Positions 32,612 through 37,186 of a DNA stretch of 64,000 nt are shown here, piece after piece. A program made the position numbers and the translations under genes. The number at the start of each line of letters is the position of its first letter. Position 1 is the stretch's first letter. Source of the DNA: Desulfurobacterium atlanticum. GTDB lineage: Bacteria; Aquificota; Aquificia; Desulfurobacteriales; Desulfurobacteriaceae. The DNA is taken from the NCBI RefSeq assembly GCF_900188395.1, contig NZ_FZOB01000001.1:62001-126000 (forward strand), written 5' to 3'. The notes under the pieces are model-generated. The model had not been told where the DNA came from. It saw nothing but the letters and a program-made list of their open reading frames with translations, and did not search any database.

Positions 32612-33660
32612 GAGAGTTTGTAAAGAAGCTTTACAGAAAGCATAAGCCGGGAGCTGTTGCTTTTGTTTTTTTATGCTTACTTTATTTTATCGCTATATTT
32701 GCCGATTTTATTGCACCTTACCCTTACGATATTCAGTTTCGTCATACTCCCTACCATCCGCCAACACCTGTCCACTTTTTTGATGAAAAAGGAAATTTTC
32801 ATTTAAGACCTTTTGTTTATGGACATAAATTGGTTGACCCTGTTTTTAAAACCTACACTACTGTGTGGGAGGAAAAATATCCTTTAAAGTTTTTTGTAAA
32901 AGGAGAACCGCACTATCTTTTTGGCTTTATAAAAACGGATATTCATCTTTTTGGAGTGGAAGGTAACGGAAAAGTCTTTCTCTTTGGGACAGATAGACTT
33001 GGAAGGGATATATTTTCGCGAATTATTTACGGAACCCGTATATCTCTTACTATAGGGCTTGTTGGTGTTGCAATTTCATTTTCCATAGGTCTGATAGTTG
33101 GAGCAATTTCCGGATATTTTGGAGGGATTACCGATACGGTGATTATGCGTCTGGTTGAACTGCTCATGGTTTTTCCTTCCTTTTACCTTCTTCTTGCCCT
33201 TCGTTCAATGTTTCCTGTTGATATTCCAAGTATTGCTGTGTTTTTTATAATTGTGGCGATACTTTCCCTTATAGGATGGACAGGCCTTGCGAGGGTTGTA
33301 AGGGGAATGGCTCTTTCCATAAGGGAGAGCGATTTTGTAAAAGCTGCTAAGGTTTTAGGCGGTAGCAGTTTTTACATTATCAGAAAACACATTATCCCAA
33401 ATACTTTATCCTACATTATTGTAGCAGCTACGCTCTCTATTCCAGGTTATATTCTGGGAGAGTCAGCTTTAAGTTTAATCGGGCTTGGTGTTCAGGAGCC
33501 TTATCCATCATGGGGTAATATGCTGTCAGAGGTTCAAAACGTTACAAAGCTTACCTCTTTTCCGTGGCTTCTTGCTCCAGGTATAGCTATATTCCTTGTT
33601 ATAATTGCTTTCAACCTTTTAGGTGATGCTTTAAGAGATTATTTTGATGTTAAGCTTTAA
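32608..33660 (+). CDS. Oligopeptide ABC transporter permease, DppC/YejE type, with long periplasmic insertion
   Basis: 350 residues, GTG start overlapping the oppB-type stop. After the first helix there is an insertion of about 80 residues (40-130: P-Y-H-P-P-T-P-V-H-F-F...F-G-F-I-K-T-D), then F-G-T-D-R-L-G-R-D-I-F-S-R, the standard DppC block, five helices and the E-S-A-L-S-L-I-G-L-G-V-Q-E-P-Y-P-S-W-G-N end. The insertion recalls YejE-like permeases. It likely imports peptides or related solutes. Confidence 0.9.
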   Translation: MREFVKKLYRKHKPGAVAFVFLCLLYFIAIFADFIAPYPYDIQFRHTPYHPPTPVHFFDEKGNFHLRPFVYGHKLVDPVFKTYTTVWEEKYPLKFFVKGEPHYLFGFIKTDIHLFGVEGNGKVFLFGTDRLGRDIFSRIIYGTRISLTIGLVGVAISFSIGLIVGAISGYFGGITDTVIMRLVELLMVFPSFYLLLALRSMFPVDIPSIAVFFIIVAILSLIGWTGLARVVRGMALSIRESDFVKAAKVLGGSSFYIIRKHIIPNTLSYIIVAATLSIPGYILGESALSLIGLGVQEPYPSWGNMLSEVQNVTKLTSFPWLLAPGIAIFLVIIAFNLLGDALRDYFDVKL

Positions 33661-34148
33661 GATTTATAAAGAATAGTAGTTATTGAATGCTTATAAACAA
33701 GCATTTTTCCCATGTAGGAGTTTACCCTTAAAACAAATCTATCAAATCCCTTTAATCTCCCTTCTATTTTTGAGCCGTTTCTGAAAAAGATTAAGATCCT
33801 TTTGTTTATAAGATTTCTCAGTGTTCTGCTTTGCACACCGCCAAGAAGTGAAGATGCAACTATTTTGTAACCTTCTGCAAGTTTTTTGTTTATTTCTTCC
33901 TCCTGCTGGGGGGTTAATACAGGAGGCACTGTTGCAAAAGATGCAGGTCTTATTATTATCTCTTCACCGTTAACTTCATAATTAATATCGCCGGAAGCTT
34001 TAAGGCTGTTTAGAAGAGGGATTATTACTTCCTGTTTGACATCAAGGGTTTTCATGAATTCATGAATGGTTCCTCTAAACTCTCCGTGTTCTTCAAGAAA
34101 ATCTATAAGCTCAAGTTGAAGTTCCTCAAGTGTTTTGTATCTCTTCAT
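33657..34148 (-). CDS. Winged-helix/Hfq fusion protein B
   Basis: 163 residues in two domains. Residues 5-68 look like a winged helix (F-R-G-T-I-H-E-F-M-K helix, then V-I-I-P-L-L-N-S-L-K and a wing G-D-I-N-Y-E-V). After a linker with P-P-V-L-T-P-Q-Q, residues 104-162 form an Hfq domain: N-K-R-I-L-I-F-F-R-N-G-S-K-I-E-G, G-F-D-R-F-V-L and V-Y-K-H-S-I. Residues equivalent to E. coli Hfq Gln8, Phe42 and Tyr55-Lys56-His57 (proximal U-rich RNA face) appear kept. It lies seven bases after its paralogue and overlaps the convergent permease by four bases. RNA and DNA binding are inferred from domains only. Confidence 0.75.
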   Translation of the reverse strand: MKRYKTLEELQLELIDFLEEHGEFRGTIHEFMKTLDVKQEVIIPLLNSLKASGDINYEVNGEEIIIRPASFATVPPVLTPQQEEEINKKLAEGYKIVASSLLGGVQSRTLRNLINKRILIFFRNGSKIEGRLKGFDRFVLRVNSYMGKMLVYKHSITTILYKS

Positions 34149-34155
34149 TTTTCAC

Positions 34156-34662
34156 CTATTCATATATTATTGTGGCTATTGCGTGTTTATAGACAAGGGA
34201 TTTCCCTTTGGGAGCTGTCATGGAGAGAGTAAAGTTGTCAAAATCAAGTAGCTTCCCTTCAAGCCTTGTTCCGCTTATCAAGAATACAGTTATCTCTTTG
34301 CCAAGAAGAGAGGAGAGCACTTCATCCTGAAGAGAAGTTTTTCTTTTTTTCTTTTCTATTTTAGCTTCTTCCTGTGGTGCTTCTTTTTGCTCTTCTTGAG
34401 TGGAGATAGAAGTTTCTTCACTGTCTTTTATCTCTTTTGCAGTTTCTTCTTTGGCCATTGTGATGTGAAGCCCCTTTCCTCTCTTTGACTCTGCTTTAAG
34501 TAAACCTTCTTCTTCAAGCTCTGATATGGCTTTTCTTACAAGATAGGCACTTGTGTTTGTTAACTGTGCTAACTCTTCTACTGTTCCTGAGTATTCACCA
34601 AACTCTTTAAGATACTCTTTCAGCCATGTTTTTATTTTCTCATGCTTTGGAATTGTGGACAT
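34156..34662 (-). CDS. Winged-helix/Hfq fusion protein A
   Basis: 168 residues. Residues 7-69 form a GntR/MarR-like winged helix (Y-S-G-T-V-E-E-L-A-Q-L-T, A-Y-L-V-R-K-A-I-S-E-L-E-E-E-G-L-L). Residues 70-108 are a highly charged Glu/Lys linker. Residues 110-168 are a clear Hfq domain: S-L-Q-D at the start, I-T-V-F-L-I-S-G-T-R-L-E-G, F-D-N-F-T-L and the hallmark V-Y-K-H-A-I. Gln8, Phe42 and Tyr-Lys-His of the uridine-binding rim are all present. AGGAGG before ATG. No miaA or hflX neighbour, the usual hfq context. Probably this lineage's Hfq, joined to a DNA-binding domain. Confidence 0.82.
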   Translation of the reverse strand: MSTIPKHEKIKTWLKEYLKEFGEYSGTVEELAQLTNTSAYLVRKAISELEEEGLLKAESKRGKGLHITMAKEETAKEIKDSEETSISTQEEQKEAPQEEAKIEKKKRKTSLQDEVLSSLLGKEITVFLISGTRLEGKLLDFDNFTLSMTAPKGKSLVYKHAIATIIYE

Positions 34663-34782
34663 TAGACCTCCTGAATTTTGTTAATTACTTTTTGTTCTAC
34701 GAATCTTTTAGATACTTTTGCAGAAAATAAAAAATATTTCAACAGACAGCCCTTCAAAAAGATTAATCAAAATTTAATATTT

Positions 34783-36135
34783 TTAGTTTGAAAGTATTCT
34801 TTCTAAAATTTTATCTTCTAAAACTTTGGTGTCAAGGTCTCCTTTTAAGAAATTTTCATCTTCTATAAGTTTAAGATGAAACGGAATGGTTGTTTTTATG
34901 TTTCCTTCTATGAAAAATTCCGAGAGTGCTCTTTTTCCACGTTTTATGGCATCGTTTCTGTTTTCCCCGTGAACTATAAGCTTTGCTATAAGAGAGTCGT
35001 AGTAAGGCGGAATTGTGTATCCTTCGTAGATATGGGTGTCAACTCTTGTTCCGAAGCCTCCAGGTAGAAGCAGTTTTTCCACTTTGCCGGGAGTTGGTCT
35101 GAAATTCTTTTTATAATCTTCAACATTTATTCTAAACTCAATGGCGTGGCCTTTAAGTTCAGGGTCTGCCATTTCAAGTTTTTCTCCTTCGGCAGTCTTT
35201 ATCTGAAGTGCTATAAGGTCTTTTCCTGTTATCATTTCGGTAACAGGGTGTTCTACCTGAATTCTTGTGTTCATTTCAATAAAATAAAAATTTTTATCTT
35301 CATCAACCAGGAACTCAACTGTTCCGGCTCCTTCATATTTTATATACTGTGCAAGCTTTCTTGCTGCTTCGTAGAGTTTTTGACGGAGATTTTCATCCAC
35401 AAACGGAGATGGAGCTTCTTCAAGAACTTTCTGATGTCTTCTCTGGAGAGAACATTCTCTCTCTCCAAAAATTATCACATTTCCATGTTTGTCAGCTATC
35501 ACCTGAATTTCTATGTGCCTTGGTTTTAGAATAAGTTTTTCAACGTATACTTCTCCATTTCCAAAAGCTGCTTCTGCTTCTGCCATTGCAGTTTCTATAA
35601 GCTCTTTTGCACCTTCTTCAGATTCTATAATTCTCATTCCTCTTCCACCACCACCGTGGGCAGCTTTTACAAGGACGGGGAATCCTATCTCTTTCGCGAT
35701 TTGAAGAGCTTCTTCAGCATTTTTAACTACATCACTACCCGGGACTATAGGTATTCCTGCCTTTTTAGCTATGCTTCTTGCCTGAGCTTTATCTCCCATA
35801 ACAACCATTGTCTCTGAAGATGGACCTATAAATTCTATTCCACATGCTCTGCATACTTCTGCAAATCCGGGGTTTTCTGATAGAAAGCCGTATCCCGGAT
35901 GAATGGCGTCCGCTCCCGATATTTCGGCTGCAGAGATTATAGCCGGAATGTTTAAATAACTTGATGCAGGTTTCTCTCCACCTATGCAGATAGCTTCATC
36001 AGCAAGAAAGACCGGTAGAGAATCTTTATCAGCAGTTGAATAGATGGCAACGGTTTTTATTCCAAGCTCTTTACAGGTTCTTATTATTCTTACAGCTATT
36101 TCACCTCTGTTGGCGATTAATATCTTTTTAAACAT
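34783..36135 (-). CDS. accC: Acetyl-CoA carboxylase, biotin carboxylase subunit
   Basis: 450 residues, the standard length. ATP-grasp features: [14 protein letters not shown] start, [33 protein letters not shown]. It carboxylates biotin on AccB, using bicarbonate and ATP. It sits behind accB by 15 bases. A pyruvate carboxylase A subunit looks alike, but the neighbour accB points to acetyl-CoA carboxylase. The carboxyltransferase genes are elsewhere. Confidence 0.93.
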
Positions 36136-36150
36136 GCAAAACTCCAGATT

Positions 36151-36603
36151 TTATACTTTTTCTATATGAAACAGCGGCTGGTCAAATTCTACAGGCTGTC
36201 CATCTTCTACAAGTATTTTTACAACTCTTCCTGAAACGTCAGATTCAATCTCATTCATCACTTTTAAAGCTTCTATTATGCAAAGGGTTTGCCCTTTCTC
36301 TACAAAATCACCTTCTTTAACAAAAGGTTCAGCTCCGGGAGATGGAGCTCTGTAGAACGTTCCAACAATCGGTGATTTTACTACATGGATATTCTCAGGT
36401 TCTGCAATGCTTTCTTCTTTTGGATGTTCCTGCTTAACAGAATGGTAGGCAGGTTCTGGGATTTTCTCTATAATCACGGGTTGAGAAGAGGGCTTTTGCC
36501 TTGTGTATTTAGCTTTCAGCTTCATCCCTTCAACTTCTATTTCTATCTCTTCAATACTACTATTTTCAAGGGATTTTAAAAGTTTTTCAATTTTTTCTAT
36601 CAC
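36151..36603 (-). CDS. accB: Biotin carboxyl carrier protein of acetyl-CoA carboxylase
   Basis: 150 residues: an N-terminal helical part, a proline-rich linker (K-P-S-S-Q-P-V-I) and the biotinyl domain from about residue 75. The biotin-bearing lysine is in E-A-L-K-V-M-N-E-I, where Leu and Val replace the usual Met residues on each side. [10 protein letters not shown] and the thumb P-S-P-G-A-E-P-F are typical of AccB. Between efp and accC, an order common in bacteria. Confidence 0.94.
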
Positions 36604-36616
36604 AGTAGCCTCCAGT

Positions 36617-37186
36617 TTACTTGTTCACCCGTTCCAAATACTTTCCTGTTTCTGTATCCACTTTTATATATTCACCTACGTTTATAAATGTTGGAACCTG
36701 AACAACGGCTCCTGTTTCAACGGTTGCAGGCTTTAAAACGTTGTTTACTGTATCACCTTTAAAGCCCGGTTCTGTTTCTATAACTTTAAGAACAACTGTT
36801 TTTGGAAGTTTTATGGAGATAGGCTCTCCTTTGTAAAACTGAACCTGAACAGAGTCGTTCTCTTTCAGGAAATTTGCTTTATCCCCTACGTTTTCTGACG
36901 GCACACCTATCTGTTCGTATGTTTTTGTATCCATAAAGTAGAAGAATGTGCCATCGTTGTAAAGATACTCCATCTCTCTCTCTTCAAAGTCTGCAAGTTC
37001 AAGTTTTTCACCAACTTTGTAAGTTTTTTCAACCACATTTCCGGTTTTAAGATTTTTAAGCTTTATTCTTGCAAAAGCCTGTCCTTTTCCCGGTTTAACA
37101 TGCTGGTAATCTACTATCTCGTAAGGCTCGCCATTGATTTCAAGTTTCATTCCTTTTGATATTTGGTTAACATCTATTGAAGCCAT
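36617..37186 (-). CDS. efp: Translation elongation factor P
   Basis: 189 residues, three OB-like domains. The tip lysine is Lys34 in [11 protein letters not shown], the residue that EpmA/B modifies in E. coli; whether it is modified here is unknown, no epm gene is nearby. EF-P rescues ribosomes stalled on polyproline. AGGAGG precedes ATG; first gene of efp-accB-accC. Confidence 0.96.

Follow-up and report, generated by a model that had tools for sequence, protein, structure and literature searches.

The window analyzed here, a 64,000-nucleotide stretch of the Desulfurobacterium atlanticum genome (1.74 Mb; Aquificota, family Desulfurobacteriaceae, whose members live at hot vents), carries two adjacent genes, hfqA and hfqB, each encoding a protein that starts with a winged helix and ends, after a linker, in an Hfq domain. 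The initial annotation had described them as two neighboring winged-helix/Hfq fusions, and this architecture is well supported by the open reading frames, Pfam, AF2 models, Foldseek and the genomes of relatives. Concerning function, we tentatively favor a co-expressed, dedicated Hfq pair in which HfqA would link RNA binding on its proximal face to DNA, with HfqB as its partner with an acidic arm, a reading that we regard as possible rather than probable. The features on which the analysis relies, with their positions in the window, are the following:

33657-34148, minus strand: HfqB fusion gene, 163 aa, ATG start (open reading frame; Pfam Hfq)
33660-33839, minus strand: HfqB Hfq domain (aa 104-163), very basic (Pfam Hfq, charge, residue alignment)
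33840-33944, minus strand: HfqB linker (aa 69-103; model confidence low from aa 71 onward)
33945-34139, minus strand: HfqB winged-helix domain (aa 4-68), acidic (AF2, Foldseek, charge)
34156-34662, minus strand: HfqA fusion gene, 168 aa, ATG start (open reading frame; Pfam Hfq above cut-off)
34159-34341, minus strand: HfqA Hfq domain (aa 108-168; Pfam, phmmer, Foldseek, residue alignment)
34342-34452, minus strand: HfqA linker (aa 71-107), Lys/Glu-rich, flexible (low identity, low pLDDT)
34453-34647, minus strand: HfqA winged-helix domain (aa 6-70), GntR-like, with a basic wing (Pfam GntR, AF2, Foldseek, conservation, charge)
34783-36135, minus strand: accC, biotin carboxylase (open reading frame, synteny; name from sequence)
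36151-36603, minus strand: accB, biotin carboxyl carrier protein (NCBIfam TIGR00531 above cut-off)
36617-37186, minus strand: efp, elongation factor P (NCBIfam TIGR00038 above cut-off; synteny)

HfqA and HfqB can be aligned end to end (29% identity, E 2e-20; profile-to-profile E 7e-23), and their description as paralogues is supported. The use of YKHA versus YKHS to tell the two apart is not, since YKHA is constant in HfqA whereas the last position of the motif in HfqB may be either A or S. Only 7 bp separate hfqA from hfqB in the window, and the genes overlap in some relatives. A chance or frame-merge artefact is ruled out by the presence of the same two-gene arrangement in 20 genomes. Neither protein contains a cysteine, and an N-terminal C2H2 zinc finger is therefore absent. 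No RNA families were found across 30-40 kb of the window.

The initial annotation had also proposed looking for this architecture in other Aquificota, and we found it across the Desulfurobacteriaceae. The adjacent pair is present in 20 of the 20 genomes of the family in which both genes are readable, representing 7 genera with the window genome counted. Orthologues of HfqA, 61-82% identical to it, occur in 20 other genomes of the family. Beyond the 20 genomes with the pair, one genome (G015) has HfqA without a readable HfqB, its contig ending there, and the sole genome of the family lacking both genes is 62% complete. A longer stretch was compared in nine genomes from seven genera: the order accB-accC-hfqA-hfqB was constant and efp headed the cluster in eight of them, while accC was upstream of hfqA in every member of the family that was read. 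In the window, the cluster efp-accB-accC-hfqA-hfqB (33657-37186) groups the Hfq fusions with genes for a translation factor and for fatty-acid synthesis.

Two genomes of a sister family in the same order (G022 and G023) encode an adjacent, diverged pair downstream of rpe (L025, 1486-2442; L026, 818-1755; wider context in L192 and L193). As the pair is present there, it is probably older than the Desulfurobacteriaceae. Its HfqA-type winged helix shares 42-43% identity with that of HfqA; the C-termini give marginal matches only (LSM E 0.0019 for one protein, Hfq E 0.025-0.03), and no Hfq above threshold was found in either genome. This decay of the Sm part next to a better-kept winged helix could mean that the essential function is something other than RNA binding. 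A wide scan of 84,980 species, one genome each, with patterns built from Desulfurobacteriaceae Hfq, gave no full-length relatives outside that family, although independent winged-helix/Hfq fusions could escape such patterns; 12 other matches that we inspected were plain or tandem Hfq. A mobile-element origin was rejected, considering that HfqB has no relative in viral contigs or phages and that plasmids gave HfqA only plain hfq.

A separate hfq, whose search had been suggested along with the fusions, does exist. Three Hfq matches were obtained in the D. atlanticum genome, namely HfqA, HfqB and an ordinary Hfq of 79 aa encoded between miaA and hflX. The idea that the fusions replaced the ordinary hfq is ruled out, as the latter is kept beside miaA/hflX. 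Most other Aquificota genomes encode two stand-alone Hfq proteins (L027-L033, L055-L063, L164-L183): a short, tail-less type beside hflX, and often miaA too, with a reduced arginine rim, and a second type with an intact rim, often beside an ADP-ribosylglycohydrolase-like gene. The paper on the Aquifex aeolicus Hfq structure treats one homolog, and the word "paralog" is absent from it (PMC5379935). We also built a tree on 66 Hfq columns, for which the software flagged the small number of columns and the meeting of long branches. HfqA, HfqB, the ordinary Hfq of the family and the two stand-alone types each formed one group; HfqA and HfqB clustered together, and the ordinary Hfq joined the hflX-linked type with moderate support. 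On whether the fusions derive from the second stand-alone Aquificota Hfq the tree, in which long branches meet, gives no resolution. The most likely course is a single fusion of a winged helix to Hfq and a later duplication, both preceding the radiation of the Desulfurobacteriaceae and probably dating back to the Desulfurobacteriales ancestor.

The N-terminal arms of the two proteins are unlike each other. The first 70 residues of HfqA alone score 28.0 with Pfam GntR (cut-off 27), compared with 25.4 for the whole protein, and the AF2 model shows a winged helix with blocks at pLDDT 81-89. Foldseek matched this domain to the DNA-binding domain of AraR on its operator (5d4r) with a probability of 1.00, at an E of only ~0.003. 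Within the family, R61, G62, G64 and L65 of this domain are invariant and K63 is kept in >90%; the family mean net charge is about neutral for the winged helix (+0.4) and +3.1 for the wing. HfqA does not keep all of the residues with which the recognition helix makes contact in GntR structures. By Pfam, a GntR-subfamily effector domain is absent from the C-terminus of HfqA, where Hfq is found instead. The linker of HfqA is acidic (mean net charge -4.3), poorly conserved (mean pairwise identity 0.33) and variable in length, and residues 72-106 are disordered in the AF2 model (pLDDT <50).

For the N-terminus of HfqB, nothing scored above any Pfam cut-off, GntR included. Residues 21-70 nonetheless form a winged helix in the AF2 model (pLDDT ~79-88), and Foldseek retrieved winged-helix proteins at a probability of 1.00 (MarR, Z-alpha, ArsR-like and similar). 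The domain has a mean net charge of -7.4 (range -9 to -5), with -4.3 in the wing, and is acidic in all 20 sequences. Within the family, the winged helices of HfqA and those of HfqB each show a mean pairwise identity of ~0.70, and the charge split between the two arms is consistent across the family. The initial annotation had given a DNA-binding domain to both proteins; this is partly supported, as the GntR match and basic wing of HfqA make DNA binding credible for that protein, whereas the helix and wing of HfqB, acidic in 20/20 sequences, make it an implausible DNA binder. The opposite charges within HfqB, whose Hfq domain is basic, suggest self-covering or contact with a partner. In our operator search no operator-like palindrome stood out upstream of hfqA, where only A/T-rich inverted repeats were seen, and one short palindrome was present upstream of efp.

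Alternatively, the winged helices may bind RNA, the ribosome or a protein instead of DNA, as in SelB and eS19, and the pair would then be a translation-linked RNA-binding complex, an explanation that we regard as rather doubtful. It draws on the Foldseek list of HfqB, which includes Z-alpha with Z-RNA and the winged helix of SelB, on weak Pfam matches to SelB-wing_1 and Ribosomal_S19e in some members, on the usual position of efp at the head of the cluster and on the acidic HfqB domain, which speaks against DNA binding. However, the top winged-helix matches of HfqA are DNA-binding regulators (GntR, the operator-bound AraR domain and DasR) and its wing is basic. Moreover, the pair of the sister family adjoins rpe and not efp; therefore, the link with efp may be incidental.

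We then considered the C-terminal halves. Pfam Hfq (PF17209, curated cut-off 27 bits) matched HfqA with 53.6 bits (E 1.8e-14) and HfqB with 47.6 bits (E 1.3e-12), as well as 20/20 HfqB members, and phmmer matched dozens of solved Hfq structures to the C-terminal part of both fusions. An Hfq domain, placed by the initial annotation at residues 104-163 of either protein, is thus recognized at the C-terminus of both, in HfqA at residues 108-168. With the NCBIfam Hfq equivalog TIGR02383, HfqA (55.9 bits) and HfqB (46.4 bits) fall under the cut-off of 61.7; therefore, judged by sequence, both are diverged Hfq. The Hfq domain of HfqA was modeled by AF2 at pLDDT mostly 69-83, falling to 59 in a single block of 10 residues, and Foldseek aligned HfqA with Hfq structures at a probability of 1.00 and a TM by target of ~0.65, the E being only ~0.003. 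The C-terminal half of the HfqB model is without confident structure, and its Hfq identity comes from the sequences of 20/20 orthologues. Mean pairwise identity is 0.88 for the Hfq domain of HfqA, 0.77 for that of HfqB and 0.85 for the core of the ordinary Hfq, and the HfqA domain is under a constraint like that of the ordinary protein. The family mean net charge is +1.3 for the Hfq domain of HfqA and +10.7 for that of HfqB.

The proximal face of Hfq binds U-rich RNA, while its arginine rim promotes the annealing of sRNAs to mRNAs. We surveyed 41 fusion sequences in E. coli Hfq numbering, with the proximal, rim and distal sites assigned as in PMC5379935 and in general Hfq biochemistry. Results showed that Q8, D40, K56 and H57 of the proximal pocket are invariant in 41/41 fusions, the only variants in the pocket being Y55F once and F42Y in two, so that the proximal RNA-binding residues are in place as initially annotated. 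The arginine rim R16/R17/R19 is lost in all 41, with a rim loop two residues shorter, and Q33 of the distal face is likewise replaced by E in every sequence; residue 41 differs between the paralogues, being N in HfqA but R in HfqB. By contrast, R16, K17, R/K19, Q33, Q41 and Q52 are all retained in the ordinary Hfq that these genomes encode. The fusions should therefore hold U-rich RNA proximally, lacking the annealing rim and with an altered distal face. Given these changes of rim and distal face, it is unlikely that HfqA or HfqB links sRNA to mRNA in the manner of E. coli Hfq.

The same residues bear on whether the pair could consist of transcription factors whose Hfq domains mainly serve oligomerization or ligand sensing, as in winged-helix/WYL proteins, and not as RNA chaperones. 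We consider this unlikely. PafBC, in which a winged helix is combined with an Sm fold (PMC6789036), offers a parallel; the fusions have lost or altered their rim and distal sites, and in the sister-family pair an HfqA-type winged helix of ~43% identity accompanies an Sm part that is down to marginal LSM/Hfq scores. On the other hand, all 41 sequences of the family retain the proximal residues that contact RNA, and oligomerization alone should need less.

Architectural proteins of the nucleoid are usually strongly basic. A nucleoid-associated complex in which multi-armed rings would bend or bridge DNA at little-specific sites is improbable, for although E. coli Hfq is nucleoid-associated (as cited in PMC3543421), several arms on one ring would bridge DNA and hfqA/hfqB are present throughout the Desulfurobacteriaceae, the basic wing occurs in HfqA only, whose winged helix has a family mean of just +0.4 and whose linker is acidic.

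We return to our favored reading of HfqA and HfqB as co-expressed, dedicated Hfq paralogues. Their C-terminal domains would most likely form rings, either homomeric or mixed, holding U-rich RNA, such as the 3' ends of terminators, in the proximal pore, which is intact. Since the arginine rim is missing, they would bind this RNA but would not anneal it as ordinary Hfq does. The GntR-like winged helices of HfqA, carried on flexible linkers, may anchor the RNA-binding ring at DNA sites, with a possible regulatory role. The acidic winged helix of HfqB, as a non-binder of DNA, would more likely be an arm for protein contact or an autoinhibitory arm covering the basic surface of its own Hfq domain. 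A more specific form, raised in the initial annotation as mixed rings, is an HfqA-HfqB ring that is anchored at specific DNA sites by the HfqA winged helices and whose pore catches U-rich RNA ends. We see this form as a speculative one, with the chances against it; if true, it would be a DNA-anchored Hfq coupling transcription sites to transcripts, beside an ordinary annealing Hfq.

As a rule, Hfq acts as a free RNA chaperone, and its association with DNA is weak and debated. A winged-helix Hfq pair, conserved throughout a bacterial family beside an ordinary Hfq, is a natural system for testing the targeting of Hfq to DNA. The pair also makes it possible to test whether proximal-face RNA binding has a function of its own without the annealing rim, and whether mixed Hfq rings exist in bacteria, comparable to the mixed Sm rings of eukaryotes.

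The initial annotation knew of no described system of this type. In the open text of PubMed Central, the scope of our search, with subscription literature outside it, we found no description of a winged-helix/Hfq fusion and no paper dealing with Hfq together with Desulfurobacterium; related architectures nonetheless provide precedents. Compared with bacterial Hfq (PF17209), as in E. coli or A. aeolicus (PDB 5szd, PMC5379935), HfqA and HfqB share the YKH motif, the Q8/D40/F42 pocket and probably the Sm fold, but they are fused to a winged helix, lack the C-terminal tail, have a rim that is two residues shorter and devoid of arginines, and carry Glu in place of Gln33. Tandem Hfq proteins (NCBIfam PRK14091) are also non-standard Hfq with an extra domain, but that domain is a second Hfq and not a winged helix; in Sphingomonadaceae we noted two Hfq domains in one 164-aa protein (L095, 6004-6498). 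The winged helix of HfqA resembles that of GntR-family regulators, passing the Pfam cut-off when taken by itself though not within the whole protein, but HfqA ends in Hfq and not in a GntR effector domain. Regulators combining a winged helix with an Sm fold (WYL) are common (PMC6789036), and PafBC resembles our proteins in its N-terminal winged helix, its Sm fold and its paralogous pair, PafB and PafC (PMC6789036). The WYL domain of PafBC, however, differs from Hfq in sequence and precedes a WCX domain, and no WYL was found among the Pfam matches of HfqA and HfqB up to E 10. Finally, zinc-finger/Hfq-like proteins of thermococcal and methanococcal plasmids, for which recruitment to DNA was proposed by their authors (PMC3543421), likewise carry an Hfq-like domain preceded by one that is presumed to bind DNA; they are, however, single genes of archaeal plasmids with a C2H2 finger, whereas HfqA and HfqB form a paralogous winged-helix pair on a bacterial chromosome.
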